Assembly (NCBI GenBank): GCA_947503035.1
Contig: CANNCD010000006.1
Coordinates: 1-64,000, forward strand
Origin: an uncultured Halocynthiibacter sp.
GTDB lineage: Bacteria; Pseudomonadota; Alphaproteobacteria; Rhodobacterales; Rhodobacteraceae
Direction: 5' to 3'
DNA: 64,000 nucleotides
Positions within the stretch are counted from its first letter, which is position 1. Each line of letters begins with the position of its first letter. The position numbers and the translations under genes were made by a program. This document shows, piece by piece, positions 24,629-31,579 of the stretch. The notes under the pieces are model-generated. The model did no database searches, was not told where the DNA came from, and worked only from the letters and a program-made list of their open reading frames with translations.

Positions 24629-25558
24629 ATGGCAAACGGTATCGAGGCTCCTAAGAGCTTTCAGGAAATTATCTTGCGGCTTCAGAATTACTGGGCGGGC
24701 AAGGGCTGTGCTGTGATGCAACCCTATGACATGGAAGTGGGCGCGGGCACGTTCCACCCTGCGACGACGCTTCGTTCGCTTGGCGACAAGAGCTGGGCCG
24801 CGGCCTATGTTCAACCGTCCCGTCGTCCGACCGATGGTCGTTACGGTGAGAACCCGAACCGCCTTCAACATTATTACCAATATCAGGTCGTGATCAAACC
24901 ATCTCCGCCGGATCTTCAGGCGCTCTATCTCGGAAGCCTCGAGGCCATCGGGATCAACATGGAATTGCACGATATCCGTTTCGTAGAAGACGATTGGGAA
25001 AGCCCAACGCTTGGCGCGTGGGGTCTTGGTTGGGAAGTGTGGTGCGATGGCATGGAAGTGTCTCAGTTCACCTATTTCCAACAGGTCGGCGGTCATGACT
25101 GTCACCCTGTGACGGGCGAATTGACATACGGATTGGAACGTCTTGCGATGTATATCCTTGGTGTCGATCACGTGATGGATATGCCGTACAATGACCCATC
25201 GTCACCGGTGCCGTTGTCCTATGGCGATGTATTTCGTCAGACCGAGGCCGAATATTCCCGCTGGAACTTTGACGTGGCCGACACCGATGTGTTGCTGCAG
25301 CACTTCAAAGACGCCGAGGCCGAATGCCAACGTATTTTGGAACAGCCCTATGAGGACCCCAAAACAGGCAAGCGTATCGTGATGGCGCACCCCGCCTATG
25401 ATCAGGCCATTAAGGCCAGCCACCTGTTCAACCTCTTGGATGCACGTGGGGTGATCTCGGTCACCGAACGTCAGGCCTATATCGGTCGTGTGCGCGCCTT
25501 GTCCAAGGCCTGCGCCGATGCATTCGTTCAAACCGAAGCAGGGGGGTATGCCGCGTGA
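24629..25558 (+). CDS. glyQ: Glycine-tRNA ligase alpha subunit
   Basis: Catalytic class-II synthetase subunit of the bacterial alpha2beta2 glycyl-tRNA synthetase. 309 residues with [12 protein letters not shown] near residue 11, [12 protein letters not shown] near 40, [19 protein letters not shown] near 60 and [12 protein letters not shown] near 150, all standard. AGAGGTGACA precedes ATG 24629. The DUF6446 gene starts four bases before its stop codon (GTGA), so the trio glyQ-DUF6446-glyS is one coupled operon. Confidence 0.97.
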
Positions 25559-26085
25559 CCGGCAAGATCCCAACGGTACTTATTATGATTGCAGCTCTCC
25601 TTGCCGGCGGCGGAATGTATTACCTTCAGGTATACGGGTATTACGACGAAATCCCCGCATCCGCCCCCGCAGCCCAGATCGAGATCACCAATCTTGTGAC
25701 AGGGACCCCAGAACCCATGTTGATCGACGGTTTTGACGGGATCGATTCCGACAGTTCCCCGATCCGGTTCCGCGCGTGTTTTTCCACGGATATGTCCACG
25801 GCCATGATGACCGAGACATTCCTGACCTATGACAACCCCGAACCCCGGACCGCGCCCGATTGGTTCGGTTGTTTTGATGCGAAAACCATTGGTGCCGATC
25901 TTGAGGCCGGTGTTGCCACCGCGTTTCTTGGCACCGAAAACATCAGCTATGGCATCGACCGTGTGATTGCCGTCTATGACGACGGCCGCGCCTTTGCTTG
26001 GCACCAAATCAACGCCTGTGGCGAAAAAGTATTTGACGGTGAGCGCGCCCCCGAAGGGTGTCCACCTGCTCCGGAGACAAACTAA
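25555..26085 (+). CDS. DUF6446 family membrane-anchored protein
   Basis: 176 residues starting at GTG 25555 inside the end of glyQ. One N-terminal hydrophobic helix (about 6-24) is followed by a probably periplasmic domain with Cys at about 75, 102 and 154 and a Pro-rich end (CPPAPETN). I recognise it as the Rhodobacteraceae family placed between glyQ and glyS; no function is known to me. It overlaps glyQ by four bases and glyS by one base, so its output is tied to that of the synthetase. Possible disulfides from the conserved-looking cysteines would fit a periplasmic location. Confidence 0.8.
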
Positions 26086-28142
26086 TGCCTGATCTACTGA
26101 TTGAACTCTTCTCCGAAGAAATCCCCGCACGTATGCAGGGCCGCGCGGCGGCTGATCTTAAGAAACTCGTGACCGATGGTTTGGTCGAGGCGGGTCTGAC
26201 CTATGCCTCGGCTGGTGCGTTTTCGACGCCCCGTCGTTTGACCCTGTCGGTTGAGGGTCTGCTCTCCGAGAGCCCAGACACACGCGAAGAGCGCAAAGGC
26301 CCCAAGGTCGGCGCACCGGACAAAGCCATCGAAGGGTTCCTTCGTGGTGCGGGCGTGTCCAAGGACGATCTTGAAATCCGTGACGACAAAAAGGGCCAGG
26401 TCTATTTCGCAGTGATCGCGAAGCCGAGTCGTCCTGCGGCGGATATCATCGCCGAGGTTCTGGAAAACGCGATCCGCAATTTCCCATGGCCAAAATCCAT
26501 GCGCTGGGGTGCTGCGCCGTTGAAATGGGTGCGCCCGTTGCATTCCATCATCTGCCTGTTGTCCGACGAAGCGGGCGCGACGGTTGTGCCGGTTGATATC
26601 GACGGTCTGATTGCCGGTGACACCACCGAGGGCCACCGTTTCATGGGCGCTGGGCGGTTTGCCGTGACTGGGTTCGACGATTACGCGACCAAGCTACGCG
26701 CGAATTCCGTGATCTTGGACGCGACAGAACGCGCCGATCACATCTGGAATGATGCGACGAACCAAGCCTTTGCAAATGGGCTTGAGGTAGTTGAGGACCG
26801 TGGTTTGTTGACCGAGGTTGCCGGCCTTGTGGAATTCCCCGTCGTGTTGATGGGCGAGATCGCAGAAGATTTCCTTGGGCTGCCACCAGAGGTGCTGCAG
26901 ACATCGATGAAAGAGCACCAAAAGTTCTTCTCGGTGAAGAACCCGAAAACTGGCCGCATTGAACGGTTCATCACGGTTGCGAACCGCGAAACCGCGGACA
27001 ATGGCGCGACGATTTTGGCAGGGAACCAAAAGGTTCTGTTTGCCCGACTGTCCGACGCGAAATTCTTTTGGGAAAATGACTTGCGCGTGGCGAATGCGGG
27101 CATGGAAACATGGACCGACGCCTTGTCCAACGTGACCTTCCACAACAAACTGGGCACACAGGCGGCGCGGATTGATCGCATCGCAGCATTGGCACGTGAG
27201 ATCGCGCCAGACGTTGGCGCCGATGCTGATTTGGCCGAAAAGGCCGCGCGCGTTGCAAAGGCCGATTTGTCCTCCGAGATGGTTTATGAATTCCCCGAAC
27301 TTCAGGGGCTTATGGGCCGTTATTACGCCGAGGCGGCCGGTCTGCCGCAAGAGGTGGCGAATGCCTGTGAGGCGCATTATTCCCCATTGGGTCCAAGCGA
27401 CGACGTCCCAACAGAGCCAGTTTCCGTCGCCGTGGCGCTTGCGGATAAGATCGATACATTGACCGGTTTCTGGGCGATTGACGAGAAGCCAACGGGGTCT
27501 AAGGACCCGTTTGCGCTTCGTCGTGCGGCGTTGGGTGTGATCCGGTTGATCATGGAAAACGACGTGCGTGTGTCCTTGGCCGATGTGTTGGGCAAAGGGT
27601 ACGAGGGTGCCGATGTGGCGCATCTGGTTGGGTTCTTCCACGACCGTTTGAAAGTGTACCTGAAGGACGAAGGTATCCGTCACGATGTGATTGATGCCTG
27701 TTTGGCGATGGACGGTAGCGACGATATCACCCTGTTGGTGAAACGTGCCCGTGCGATGGCCGCGTTCCTGAAGACCGACGATGGGGAAAACCTGTTGCAG
27801 GGCTTTAAACGCGCGAACAACATTTTGTCGCAAGCTGAGGAAAAAGACGGGGTTGAGTATTCATTCGGCGCGGATGTAAAATTCGCCGAGGATGATAGCG
27901 AGACCGCCTTGTTTGACGCGTTGAAATCCGCAGAGGGGGCGATCTCTTCGGCCATCGAGACCGAAGATTTCGCGGGCGCCTTTGGCGCCATGGCCGCCCT
28001 ACGGTCACCGATCGATGCGTTTTTCACGGCAGTGCAGGTCAATGCCGACAACGCTATCGTGCGTCGTAATCGTCTAAACCTGTTGGGTCAAATCCGCAAA
28101 ATCGGCACATCTGTTGCCGATCTGACCCGCGTCGAAGGGTAA
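26085..28142 (+). CDS. glyS: Glycine-tRNA ligase beta subunit
   Basis: tRNA-recognition subunit of glycyl-tRNA synthetase, 685 residues. It begins [18 protein letters not shown], the usual start, and shows FSTPRRLTL near residue 45, FPWPKSMRWG near 136, EFPVVLMG near 250 and KDPFALRRAALG near 475. Its ATG shares a base with the DUF6446 stop codon (TAATG). A hairpin follows the stop codon, then the PPDK-like gene. Confidence 0.97.
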   Translation: MPDLLIELFSEEIPARMQGRAAADLKKLVTDGLVEAGLTYASAGAFSTPRRLTLSVEGLLSESPDTREERKGPKVGAPDKAIEGFLRGAGVSKDDLEIRDDKKGQVYFAVIAKPSRPAADIIAEVLENAIRNFPWPKSMRWGAAPLKWVRPLHSIICLLSDEAGATVVPVDIDGLIAGDTTEGHRFMGAGRFAVTGFDDYATKLRANSVILDATERADHIWNDATNQAFANGLEVVEDRGLLTEVAGLVEFPVVLMGEIAEDFLGLPPEVLQTSMKEHQKFFSVKNPKTGRIERFITVANRETADNGATILAGNQKVLFARLSDAKFFWENDLRVANAGMETWTDALSNVTFHNKLGTQAARIDRIAALAREIAPDVGADADLAEKAARVAKADLSSEMVYEFPELQGLMGRYYAEAAGLPQEVANACEAHYSPLGPSDDVPTEPVSVAVALADKIDTLTGFWAIDEKPTGSKDPFALRRAALGVIRLIMENDVRVSLADVLGKGYEGADVAHLVGFFHDRLKVYLKDEGIRHDVIDACLAMDGSDDITLLVKRARAMAAFLKTDDGENLLQGFKRANNILSQAEEKDGVEYSFGADVKFAEDDSETALFDALKSAEGAISSAIETEDFAGAFGAMAALRSPIDAFFTAVQVNADNAIVRRNRLNLLGQIRKIGTSVADLTRVEG

Positions 28143-28170: not shown

Positions 28171-28202
28171 TTCACCGCTATCGTTGGTCCAAGGAGACTT
28201 TG

Positions 28203-30743
28203 ATGACCAATTCCGCGCAGGCACCCGAAGATTTTTGTGAAATCACCCCGACCGCCAATATCGGGGTAACCACCCACGGTGGACGTGCCAAGTGTCTTCA
28301 ACGCTTGGTGCGGTTGGATATGCCTGTGCCTTTGACGCTTGCGCTTTCGTTTGGTGCGGTGAAGGACATCGCCGAAGGGCGTATGCCCGACACGGCCCGC
28401 ATGATGGCGAGTTTCGGCGACGCACCGCTGGTTTGCGTTCGGCCAAGTTCCCAAGACCCAGATTGGGGTGGCCCGCGCGCCGTGTTGAACGTCGGTATCA
28501 ACGATGCCCGCCATGCGGACCTGTGCAAACAGATCGGCGAAGAGGCCGCAAACGTTATGTATCTGCGGTTTGTCAAAGAATTCGCGGTCCATGTTGCGCG
28601 GCTTGACCCTGATATGTTTGAGGCCCCCAAATCGGATAGCGCGCAGGCGCTTGCCCATGTTCTGAACGCCTATGAGTTAGAAACCGACACCCCATTTCCG
28701 CAGGACCCCGCCGTGCAATTGGCGCAGGTTCTTCGGTCCATGGCGCGGGCGTGGGACGGGACGACGGCACGGTTGCTTCGCTCCGCCAGTGGTGCCCCTG
28801 CGGATGCGGGGCTTGGCCTGATTGTCCAGAAAATGGCGCTTGGGGTTGGGCCGGGTGAATCGGGGTCCGGACGCATTCATTTCGTCGATGCGGTCTCGGG
28901 CAAGCCGGCCATCGTCGGCCGCTATACCCGCCAGTCCCAACAGCACGAAACCGAGGTGCCGGAGAACACGCTTTATATCGGGCGTGATCCGCGCGGCCCT
29001 TCGTTTCAGGACGAAGTCAACGACGTCTTCAACGAATTGGTCGATTGGAGCGGTATCCTTCGGCAGCGCCTGCGCGAAGAGATGCAGGTTGAATTTACCG
29101 TCGAACAAGGCGCGCTTTGCGTTTTGGATGCGATCCGCGTCCAGCGGTCATCGCGTGCCGGCGTCGCCATTGCGGTTGCCCTAGCCAATGATGGGATCAT
29201 CACACGAAACGATGCCCTTTTGCGGACCCAACCCCACGCCCTTAGTGAACTGTTGCACCCGCAAATTGACCCGAGCGCGGACCGCTCTGTCTGTGCGCGC
29301 GGCATTGCCGCGAGTCCTGGGGCGGCCACGGGGCGCTTGGTATTTGATTCCGCCACCGCACAGGCCAACGCCGCCCGCGGTGAGGCCTCTGTTTTGGTGC
29401 GCCGTGAAACCACCCCCGAAGACATCCGTGGGATGCATGCGGCCTCGGCGGTTTTGACCGAAAAGGGCGGTGTGACAAGCCACGCCGCAGTGATCGCGCG
29501 CGGGCTGGGCGTGCCCTGTATCGTTGGGGCGACCGATATCAAAATCGATTCCCGCAAAAAACAAATCCTGACCCAAGACGGCCGCGTTTTGTCCGAAGGC
29601 GAAACCATGACCATCGACGGGACTTCGGGTGAAATCCTTTTCGGGGCGGCCAAGATGGTCGAGGCCGCACAGGACGGCGCGTTCCGTTCGTTGTTGTCAT
29701 GGGCCGACGACGTGCGCGAAATCGGGGTGCGGGCCAACGCCGACACCCCCGCCGACGCCGCCGTCGCCCACAACTTTGAGGCCGAAGGCATTGGCCTGTG
29801 TCGCACGGAACACATGTTCTTTGAACAGGACCGCCTGACCGTGATGCGCGAAATGATTTTCGCAGATAGCTCGGCGGATCGTCATGCGGCGCTTGACCGT
29901 CTGTTGCCGATGCAGCGCAATGACTTTATCGACCTGTTCGACATTATGGCGGGCAAACCGGTGTGCATCCGTCTGTTCGATCTGCCGCTCCATGAAATTC
30001 TGCCTGCCACGCGCGAAGGCCTTCATGACTTGGCCGAGGCGCTTGATCGACCTTTGTCCGAGGTCACCCAGCGCGTCGATGCGATTTCCGAATTCAACCC
30101 GATGTTGGGGATGCGCGGTGTGCGTTTGGGCATCGAAATGCCCGAGATTTACGTCATGCAGGCCCGCGCGATTTTTGAAGCCGCGATTGAGATGGGGCGC
30201 CGTGGTACGCCGTTCGTGCCCGAAATCATGATCCCGCTTGTTTCGGCCAAACGTGAAGTCGAACTGGTCAAGACCCAGATCGATGGCGTTGCTGCCGAAC
30301 TGCGTGCCCATGGTGCATCGGATTTCGACTATCGGTTGGGGGTCATGGTGGAAACGCCGCGTGCCGCATTGCGGGCAGGGGACATCGCCATGAATGCGTC
30401 CTTCCTCAGCTTTGGTACGAATGACCTTACCCAGATGACCTATGGTCTGTCGCGCGATGATGCGGGGCGGTTTATGTCTGGTTACGTGCAGAAATCTGTC
30501 TTTCCCGAGGACCCGTTTCACATGCTTGACCACGAAGGTGTGGGCGAATTGATGGAGATAGGGGCCGCCCGTGCCCGCGCCGCCCGCCCAAATATTGTGC
30601 TTTCAATGTGTGGTGAGCACGGCGGGAACCCCGAATCGATTGCATTCTGTTGTGCGGCAGGGTTTGATTACGTGTCGTGTTCGCCGTTTCGGGTACCCGT
30701 GGCTCGGCTTGCGGCCGCCCATTTGGCAATTTCCCAGAAATAG
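28203..30743 (+). CDS. Pyruvate phosphate dikinase-like PEP-utilising protein with altered ATP site
   Basis: 846 residues aligning along the full length with pyruvate,phosphate dikinase. The swivelling domain keeps the phospho-acceptor His427 (GGVTSHAAVIARG), and the PEP/pyruvate barrel keeps GIGLCRTEHMFFE, GTNDLTQMT and the catalytic Cys803 in MCGEHGGNP. The ATP-grasp half is eroded: the GGKG lysine is Arg28, the SMPGMMDT loop is replaced by a DPDWGGPR-type segment, and positions matching the ATP-binding D321 and Q335 of the Clostridium enzyme (numbers from memory) are Gln295 and Asp309, while Arg80 and Glu297 remain. ATG 28203 follows AAGGAG. It may use another phosphoryl donor or be regulatory; classic PPDK activity is doubtful. 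Confidence 0.8.
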   Translation: MTNSAQAPEDFCEITPTANIGVTTHGGRAKCLQRLVRLDMPVPLTLALSFGAVKDIAEGRMPDTARMMASFGDAPLVCVRPSSQDPDWGGPRAVLNVGINDARHADLCKQIGEEAANVMYLRFVKEFAVHVARLDPDMFEAPKSDSAQALAHVLNAYELETDTPFPQDPAVQLAQVLRSMARAWDGTTARLLRSASGAPADAGLGLIVQKMALGVGPGESGSGRIHFVDAVSGKPAIVGRYTRQSQQHETEVPENTLYIGRDPRGPSFQDEVNDVFNELVDWSGILRQRLREEMQVEFTVEQGALCVLDAIRVQRSSRAGVAIAVALANDGIITRNDALLRTQPHALSELLHPQIDPSADRSVCARGIAASPGAATGRLVFDSATAQANAARGEASVLVRRETTPEDIRGMHAASAVLTEKGGVTSHAAVIARGLGVPCIVGATDIKIDSRKKQILTQDGRVLSEGETMTIDGTSGEILFGAAKMVEAAQDGAFRSLLSWADDVREIGVRANADTPADAAVAHNFEAEGIGLCRTEHMFFEQDRLTVMREMIFADSSADRHAALDRLLPMQRNDFIDLFDIMAGKPVCIRLFDLPLHEILPATREGLHDLAEALDRPLSEVTQRVDAISEFNPMLGMRGVRLGIEMPEIYVMQARAIFEAAIEMGRRGTPFVPEIMIPLVSAKREVELVKTQIDGVAAELRAHGASDFDYRLGVMVETPRAALRAGDIAMNASFLSFGTNDLTQMTYGLSRDDAGRFMSGYVQKSVFPEDPFHMLDHEGVGELMEIGAARARAARPNIVLSMCGEHGGNPESIAFCCAAGFDYVSCSPFRVPVARLAAAHLAISQK

Positions 30744-30919
30744 GTGAAATTACCTATTGTCTTAAGGACCTTACGCAGCTTTCCCATATTGGGATAGGTG
30801 CTTTGTTGTGACACCCTAGACCCCAAAAACCACGCTTAGTTGTTTCTTAATCAGAATTCCCTTATGAAGTCGCGAACTGCGGCTTTGGCTGCGATGTAAC
30901 TGCTATGCTAGGATGTCTC

Positions 30920-31579
30920 ATGACACGCTCTGTATTTTTTGCTGGTTTGATTGCCTTTGTAACATCGTTTGCCACACCTTCCTTGGCGAATGATGTCGAT
31001 CCGACTGTTGCCCTTGATGGCCAGATTGCCTTGCTCTTGGGGCAGGAACGCGCCGTTCTGTCCGAGGTGAGCGCCGCTCATTTCCAAGGTTTGACAACCC
31101 CGCCATTGAAGGCAGCCGCCGGAATGGACAGTGTCGAATACACGCGGTCTTGGGTTTCGGCCCAACCCGTGCGCAAAGGCGGCGATGAATGGGCCTGTTT
31201 GACACAGGCGCTCTATTTCGAAGCCCGCGGCGAAAGCGTAAAGGGCCAGTTCGGCGTTGCCGAGGTTATTTTGAACCGCGTTGCATCATCGCGGTATCCA
31301 GACACCGTGTGTGGCGTGATCCATCAGGGCACCGGCAAAAAATACCAATGCCAGTTCACCTATACCTGTGATGGCCGTGCCGAGGTGGTGTCAGAAAAGC
31401 GCGCCTATGATGCCGTTGGCAAGATCGCCTATGCGGTTCTGAACGGTGCGCCGCGTAACCTGACGTCTGGCGCCACGCATTATCACACCAATGCTGTGAA
31501 CCCTCGCTGGGCCAAAGTGTTCCCTCACACTACGACAATCGGGGTTCACCGTTTCTATCGCCAGCCGTCGCGCACCTAA
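30920..31579 (+). CDS. SleB/CwlJ-type cell wall hydrolase
   Basis: 219 residues with an N-terminal signal sequence (hydrophobic to about residue 22, ending near PSLAN) and a C-terminal Hydrolase_2 (SleB) domain from about residue 92: WACLTQALYFEARGE carries the catalytic Glu, and VAEVILNRV, FTYTCDG and ATHYHT are family landmarks. Acts on peptidoglycan in the periplasm, probably as a lytic transglycosylase-like enzyme. ATG 30920 has AGGA six bases ahead; an ATG at 30905 in frame is possible but less well placed. Its upstream region contains an 11-codon open frame. Confidence 0.87.
   Translation: MTRSVFFAGLIAFVTSFATPSLANDVDPTVALDGQIALLLGQERAVLSEVSAAHFQGLTTPPLKAAAGMDSVEYTRSWVSAQPVRKGGDEWACLTQALYFEARGESVKGQFGVAEVILNRVASSRYPDTVCGVIHQGTGKKYQCQFTYTCDGRAEVVSEKRAYDAVGKIAYAVLNGAPRNLTSGATHYHTNAVNPRWAKVFPHTTTIGVHRFYRQPSRT

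Follow-up and report, generated by a model that had tools for sequence, protein, structure and literature searches.

A pyruvate, phosphate dikinase orthologue with an intact phosphoenolpyruvate half and a remodelled nucleotide domain in Rhodobacteraceae

The window, that is, the whole 64,000-nucleotide stretch analysed here, carries on its forward strand a gene for an 846-residue protein that resembles pyruvate, phosphate dikinase (PPDK). It lies between glycyl-tRNA synthetase genes and a SleB-like gene; we take the names glyQ, glyS and SleB-like to be the right ones for these neighbours. The features of the locus are given below, with the residue names K22, R92, E271, D321, E323, Q335 and R337 in C. 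symbiosum PPDK numbering.

24629..25558, forward strand: open reading frame presumed to be glyQ, glycyl-tRNA synthetase alpha (context)
26085..28142, forward strand: presumed glyS, glycyl-tRNA synthetase beta, directly upstream of the PPDK-like gene (context)
28191..28196, forward strand: Shine-Dalgarno-like AAGGAG ahead of the ATG of the PPDK-like gene
28203..30743, forward strand: open reading frame of the PPDK-like protein, 846 aa; ATG at 28203, stop codon ending at 30743
28260..29237, forward strand: former ATP-grasp (nucleotide) domain, remodelled, residues 20-345; no PF01326 match, fold kept in the AF2 model
28275..28298, forward strand: HGGRAKCL, residues 25-32, where the canonical sequence is LGGKGANL; K22 becomes R28
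28440..28490, forward strand: R80 and the loop RPSSQDPDWGGPRAVLN, where the canonical sequence is RSGARASMPGMMDTVLN or near it
28920..28922, forward strand: R240, at the position of C. symbiosum E271
29076..29147, forward strand: EEMQVEFTVEQGALCVLDAIRVQR, with D321 changed to Q295, E323 kept as E297, Q335 changed to D309 and R337 to I311
29286..29642, forward strand: phosphohistidine swivel domain, residues 362-480 (PF00391, 83.7 bits at 395-476)
29466..29504, forward strand: GGVTSHAAVIARG, with the catalytic His427 and the PDRP-type Thr425
29685..30731, forward strand: PEP/pyruvate-binding domain, residues 495-843 (PF02896, 252.4 bits at 490-841)
30905..31579, forward strand: presumed SleB-like cell-wall hydrolase gene, downstream of the PPDK-like gene (context)

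Both phmmer and a structure search returned PPDKs as the best PDB relatives of the protein. Pfam matched its swivel His domain and PEP domain, and PPDK_N (PF01326) gave no match at E-values up to 1. With the NCBIfam PPDK equivalog model TIGR01828 the protein scored 792 bits, under the cut-off of 843.45, and it fell below the cut-offs of the models for PEP synthase (TIGR01418, 150.2 bits against 739.75) and PTS Enzyme I (TIGR01417, 132.4 bits against 341.7). Its named relatives, at 62-70% identity, were records from Rhodobacteraceae, Roseobacteraceae and Paracoccaceae and one titled only Alphaproteobacteria, and a quick tree placed it beside Celeribacter (support 85). The initial annotation had proposed looking for a second, intact ppdK, but a PF01326 search of the 99.92%-complete genome found none; the sole further PEP-utilizers match in that genome lies inside a 751-aa frame. 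PDRP was likewise not found there in a PF03618 search.

The comparison across the family was made on an alignment of 269 distinct rows, which were divided by the six residues K22, R92, D321, E323, Q335 and R337; we assume that these make up the ATP-site set of PPDK, and assume their roles in it. Thirty-one rows were canonical (K-R-D-E-Q-R), namely 28 loci from the class, one locus from within the family (L112) and two stand-alone N-half proteins (L114 and L115). The remaining 238 rows, all from the family sample or the named loci, were non-canonical; 207 of them read R-R-Q-E-D and form what we call the core, and 27 were divergent non-core rows. The family sample itself comprised one genome per genus and 142 distinct rows.

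The catalytic His and the PEP half were intact, as the initial annotation had read them. Along with His427, the protein has R534, R590, D593, E717, N740, D741 and C803 in its PEP/pyruvate domain, that is, all eight residues of what we take to be the His and PEP-site set of PPDK. Each of the eight was found in 237 or 238 of the 238 non-canonical rows (His427 in 237, the remaining row having a gap), and 141 of the 142 distinct family-sample rows had the full set, the one remaining row coming from a contig fragment. The core retained 139 of 159 canonically conserved positions in the His and PEP part, and 32 of 101 in the N-domain. Residues 357-484 aligned with the NMR structure 2fm4. Of 234 rows, 13 have Ser (12) or Val (1) in place of the PDRP-type Thr425 (L004, L109, L110, L111, L124, L131, L132, L165, L170, L196, L239, L277 and L279); the seven genomes in which PDRP was found all have Thr.

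At the six ATP-site positions the window's protein reads R, R, Q, E, D and I, with two of six residues kept. In the phmmer alignment with C. symbiosum PPDK, which begins at residue 73 and is gapless from residue 266 through the ATP site, R92 paired with R80, D321 with Q295, E323 with E297, Q335 with D309 and R337 with I311. The pairing of K22 with R28 rests on a MAFFT alignment with alphaproteobacterial PPDKs and on the GGKG motif, whose Lys we take to be K22. At the sites covered by both, phmmer and the MAFFT alignment of 269 distinct rows agreed, and the two together bear out the claimed exchange of Lys, Asp and Gln for Arg28, Gln295 and Asp309, to which the change of R337 to I311 is now added. 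As a control, we took the 25 outsider loci retrieved through the N-domain profile search through the same alignment; 24 read K-R-D-E-Q-R and one had an X at the Lys, so the placement of the ATP-site residues, which the initial annotation had wanted checked, holds. The SMPGMMDT loop reported as lost is indeed gone, but it has been replaced by a conserved D-W-G-G-P loop rather than deleted. K22, R337 and T453 are named as mutated in PDB titles (1jde, 2dik and 1ggo), and the K22A and R337A probe mutants (1jde, 2dik) reportedly lost activity.

These replacements recurred across the family. The commonest ATP-site pattern in the non-canonical rows was R-R-Q-E-D-V (183 rows). The K22 position held Arg in 228 of the 238 (Lys in 31 of 31 canonical rows), the Q335 position Asp in 232 and position 312 Arg or Lys in 209; R92 was kept in 234 and E323 in 221. 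Among the 142 family-sample rows, D321 and Q335 were retained in L112 only, and K22 and R337 in six each, L112 being counted in both. W-G-G stood at positions 88-90 in 228 of the 234 non-canonical rows covering both sites, where all 29 of 29 canonical rows had PGM, and W88-G-G-P91 was conserved at 1.00 across the 207 core rows. Ninety N-domain positions were at least 97% conserved in the core; 46 of these differed from the commonest canonical residue, and these newly fixed positions include nine Arg or Lys. Of the 101 N-domain positions conserved in canonical rows, 69 were not kept in the core. The window's protein followed the core at the 90 positions with two exceptions, having H248 where the core has R and N273 where it has P.

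The N-domain was more variable than the C-domain, with mean pairwise identities of 64% vs 76% in the core and 40% vs 66% in the 27 non-core rows, and the core N-domain stretch was about 41 residues shorter than in canonical rows. The non-core rows include some of transitional appearance, which diverge outside the core, and others that fall within the core clade with one of the five residues changed. The N-domain dN/dS (Nei-Gojobori) was 0.04-0.13 in 12 close family pairs and 0.12-0.16 in three canonical pairs, one more pair on the list being absent, although several dS values were above 1, which makes single ratios rough. The word "eroded" that the initial annotation used for the ATP-grasp is unsupported, since the replacements have become fixed in most of the family and purifying selection acts on the N-domain; the sequences point to an N-domain that was altered and then maintained under purifying selection. 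We also considered a positively charged pocket and rejected it, since the net charge of the N-domain was -8.9 in the core vs -16.1 in canonical rows, less negative yet not positive.

Some match was found in 147 of 149 family genomes, strong in 142 and with a weak best match (E 3e-8 to 1e-16) in five; no in-frame stop occurred in the best family matches, among the matches listed. In a search of the order, 61 of 61 genomes were strongly matched, all of them from Rhodobacteraceae. The class search covered 385 genomes, five of them from the family, and 292 were matched by the profile; the remodelled N-domain profile scored 561-574 bits in the five family genomes and no more than 138 in any of the remaining 380. 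No remodelling was seen among the 25 outsider loci, a result that does not extend to the lower-scoring class matches, which were left unaligned and where weaker cases may be missed. Judged from these searches, the remodelled protein is restricted to Rhodobacteraceae in the genomes covered. Two small class genomes (G169:C38:1419-3815 and G167:C124:1724-4129) had PPDK matches with one in-frame stop each, TAG and TAA, respectively.

Of the 75 named family loci with sufficient flank, 72 had a same-strand glyS upstream, as did 27 of 28 canonical class loci; these 28 belong to the set retrieved from the 100 class genomes that were matched. In the family sample, glyS was upstream in 129 of 167 rows, duplicate rows included; the 38 rows without it were 24 PEP-synthase-like proteins, two stand-alone N-half proteins and 12 remodelled proteins. 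Because the window's gene shares the position after glyS with canonical alphaproteobacterial ppdK, we regard the remodelled gene as the orthologue and not as a spare copy. A paralogue or a recent acquisition was ruled out, as the locus is the canonical ppdK locus. In a 79-row tree (LG+G4), the 28 class canonicals fell on one branch (support 100) and L112 grouped with two divergent family rows (support 85, drawn open); on a single origin of the remodelling the tree leaves the basal order unresolved, with L110 as a long branch. L112 (genome G054, C68:1-8881) was the only full-length protein with the canonical ATP site among the 142 distinct family-sample rows; it has Glu at 271, and its genome also carries PDRP. 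It is our reference for the ancestral state. A SleB-like relative accompanied the remodelled gene in each of the 77 named loci whose downstream flank was long enough, and the canonical gene in just 1 of 27 loci.

Two near-complete genomes (G094 and G127) lack the PPDK-like gene, the SleB gene coming straight after glyS, so the function of the PPDK-like gene is not vital. Neither glyS nor the PPDK-like gene was found in G131 and G102, so that these two are uninformative on loss, and the remaining family genomes with a weak match or none are only 74-84% complete.

Position 271 was Arg in 207 of 207 core rows and in 21 of the 27 others, and Glu in 29 of 29 canonical rows. Together with 219 and 262, it is presumably situated on the face where the His domain docks. 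The wild-type-like chains 2dik, 1dik and 1kbl have R219, S262 and E271, and the mutant chain 2r82 has E219, D262 and R271. The core resembles this C. symbiosum triple mutant (R219E/E271R/S262D, 2R82) in its Arg at 271 and in the loss of Arg219, which is Thr or Ser in the core; it differs in that the mutant chain retains R92, D321, Q335 and R337 and has Asp at 262, a position that is variable in the family, with Val commonest. In the triple mutant, the central domain is described as lying beside the PEP domain (PMC5371819). Arg at 271 may make the His domain dock less firmly on the N-domain, and weaker docking would count against a transfer step to the N-domain side. It may alter swivelling or mark a re-shaped docking face. 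A search of residues 362-480 for a compensating charge swap, at the thresholds applied, turned up no position newly fixed as Asp or Glu; H409 to R and E387 to Q were the fixed differences there that affect charge.

The AF2 model, built from 58 rows, had a mean pLDDT of 85.9 and a pTM of 0.83, and modelled the new loop poorly (pLDDT under 50 at 89-92). PPDKs ranked first across its full length in Foldseek and VIA-align 2, the latter giving for 5jvl_A a Z of 48.5 and an rmsd of 4.3 over 825 aligned residues, and the three-domain PPDK fold was thus recovered. The ATP-grasp fold is retained in the N-domain as modelled. The model scored closer to 2r82, 1vbg and 5jvl, in which the His domain sits on the PEP side, than to 1kbl, although the swivel state of an AF2 model is weak evidence.

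We then considered PEP metabolism in the family. PEPCK was matched in 146 and pyruvate kinase in 147 of the 149 genomes, and both in 132 of 132 genomes that are at least 90% complete; in G007 the PEPCK matches were broken by stops. This near-universal presence implies that other enzymes can cover the PEP node, and with PEPCK the family could make PEP from oxaloacetate, so that a general need for PPDK is not evident. PF01326 was found in 45 of 149 genomes, 30 of which have a match over 350 bits; most of these higher-scoring matches fall in reading frames some 800-940 aa long, the size expected of PEP synthase, and the other genomes have weaker, unsorted ones. According to a review, every bacterium with PPDK also has a PDRP homologue (PMC8100219). 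We found PDRP (PF03618) in seven of 149 family genomes, six of which carry the already remodelled protein. If PDRP needs phosphorylated His (His~P), its presence beside the remodelled protein in six genomes would fit a His~P that is still made.

The published work on roseobacters touches the same question. In D. shibae and P. gallaeciensis, where ppdK is annotated, 13C work on glucose is described as finding zero PEP from pyruvate (PMC2761930), and in R. denitrificans as finding weak PEP-from-pyruvate flux with low ppdK expression (PMC2749216). The D. shibae model contains the PPDK reaction, with the reverse direction given as active in all states studied (PMC3789786). On the family pattern, the ppdK genes of these three species are likely of the remodelled type. 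For a loss of the dikinase role the flux papers are weak support, since their results might come down to growth on glucose or to low expression. The main text of an R. sphaeroides essentiality study contains none of the words "dikinase", "pyruvate" and "phosphoenolpyruvate" (PMC5513736).

Among known systems, PPDK (EC 2.7.9.1; C. symbiosum 1KBL, plant 5JVL) shares with the window's protein the domain order, the full-length fold and the His and PEP residues, and in other alphaproteobacteria also the place after glyS. Unlike PPDK, the window's protein has four of six ATP-site residues replaced, SMPGMMDT exchanged and Arg at 271, falls below the TIGR01828 cut-off, and comes from a genome without PDRP. 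PTS Enzyme I has the PEP-driven His phosphorylation and the His and PEP fold in common with it (2hwg_A vs residues 365-845 of the AF2 model: Z 31.1, rmsd 2.9, 396 aligned), but has another N-terminal part, and the protein is far under the Enzyme I model cut-off. Two stand-alone proteins of the family sample, L114 (G062, C33:120601-128049; 625 aa) and L115 (G124, C43:1-4805; 582 aa), show a VadK-like layout, with PPDK ATP site and His motif intact and no PEP domain; both genomes also hold the remodelled protein. Their neighbours are, by our own naming, an AMP-dependent acyl-CoA-ligase-like gene in both and biotin-carboxylase-like and biotin-carrier-like genes at L114. VadK itself (Rv1127c of M. 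tuberculosis) is described as a PPDK-derived regulator that acts through protein contact and is PPDK no longer (PMC13400623). It is reported to keep the ATP-grasp and His domains and to have lost the PEP domain (PMC13400623), whereas the window's protein is intact in the other half, with its PF02896 match of 252.4 bits. Rifampin phosphotransferase and HpeHI-type dikinases are similarly portrayed as placing a swivel His between a donor and a non-PPDK acceptor domain, with ATP as donor (PMC12167813); the donor of the window's protein would be PEP. Among the matches listed in a search of open-licence literature by title or start of abstract, we found no earlier description of the remodelled family.

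Our preferred reading, to which we give slightly less than an even chance, is that the Rhodobacteraceae orthologue of PPDK was converted from a dikinase to a PEP-dependent histidine phosphotransferase. His427 would be phosphorylated by PEP, with C803 as proton donor and pyruvate released, and the swivel domain would carry the phosphoryl group to the N-domain side. There, we conjecture, a new acceptor would replace AMP/pyrophosphate, perhaps a small molecule in the remodelled cleft or a docked partner protein. The three options of the initial annotation, namely phosphate from another protein, a different nucleotide or a regulatory role, are each still plausible. With the intact half offering PEP as the evident donor, however, the N-domain side more probably receives phosphate than supplies it. 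By analogy, the arrangement would mirror VadK. We offer only tentatively, as a possibility we are inclined to doubt, that Rhodobacteraceae have a family-wide class of PEP-dependent kinases in which the ATP-grasp has turned acceptor site and "PEP + X -> pyruvate + X-P" runs through a swivelling His domain.

The protein could instead be a nucleotide-using dikinase still, with E297 and D309 holding the metal, R28 and R312 replacing K22 and R337, and a different nucleotide or second acceptor, e.g., ADP, GTP or a PPi-type one. The retention of R92 (234/238) and E323 (221/238), the Asp at the Q335 position (232/238), the Arg or Lys at 312 (209/238) and the kept ATP-grasp fold, whose first Foldseek match, 5jvl_A, is an entry with a bound ATP analogue, all fit this. 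Since R92 and E323 are kept and D309 is a possible metal ligand, some nucleotide use may survive. The initial annotation held that the protein cannot bind ATP normally; normal dikinase chemistry does appear unlikely, but a total loss of ATP binding is unsupported, as R92, mostly E323, and the fold remain. However, K22, D321, Q335 and R337 are all changed, two of them being the residues of the K22A and R337A probe mutants (1jde, 2dik), 69 of 101 canonically conserved N-domain positions are not kept in the core, and PF01326 does not match, so we consider a surviving dikinase unlikely, though a serious rival. We give the same weight to a sensor, in which phosphorylation of His427 would read the PEP:pyruvate ratio and the N-domain would bind and control a target protein, the phosphoryl group going no further. 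The wholly retained PEP half and an Arg271 (207/207 core rows) that could keep the His domain at the PEP side would suit a sensor, as would the precedent of VadK, a PPDK-derived regulator by protein contact (PMC13400623), but conservation at 28-37, 80-96 and 293-315 seems to exceed what a docking surface would need.

A decaying relic, that is, PPDK minus its ATP half, might be suspected from the greater variability of the N-domain (64% vs 76% in the core, 40% vs 66% in the 27 divergent rows) and from the loss of the gene in G094 and G127. It is nevertheless very improbable, given the N-domain dN/dS of 0.04-0.13 in 12 close pairs, the strong matches given by 142 of the 149 genomes, the best of those listed being free of in-frame stops, and the 46 newly fixed N-domain positions. 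We put least trust in the idea of a normal PPDK misread through a faulty alignment, for which we found no supporting evidence: two aligners concur where both cover, the 25 outsiders read canonical apart from the one X at Lys, and the N-domain profile separates the five family genomes (561-574 bits) from the other 380 (at most 138).

The PPDK label on the remodelled gene is probably wrong. Relatives carry the label too, among them a plasmid-borne one from a Paracoccaceae bacterium, 53.7% identical, that is annotated 'ppdK_2: Pyruvate, phosphate dikinase'. If the D. shibae gene is of the remodelled type, the PPDK flux in its metabolic model would be an artefact, and the zero PEP from pyruvate in the 13C work would be simply explained. 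The canonical relative inside the family, in G054, offers a comparison for the remodelled protein. If the conversion to a PEP-dependent histidine phosphotransferase is true, it would show plainly how a central-metabolism enzyme was put to a new use throughout one bacterial family, as the mirror image of VadK.
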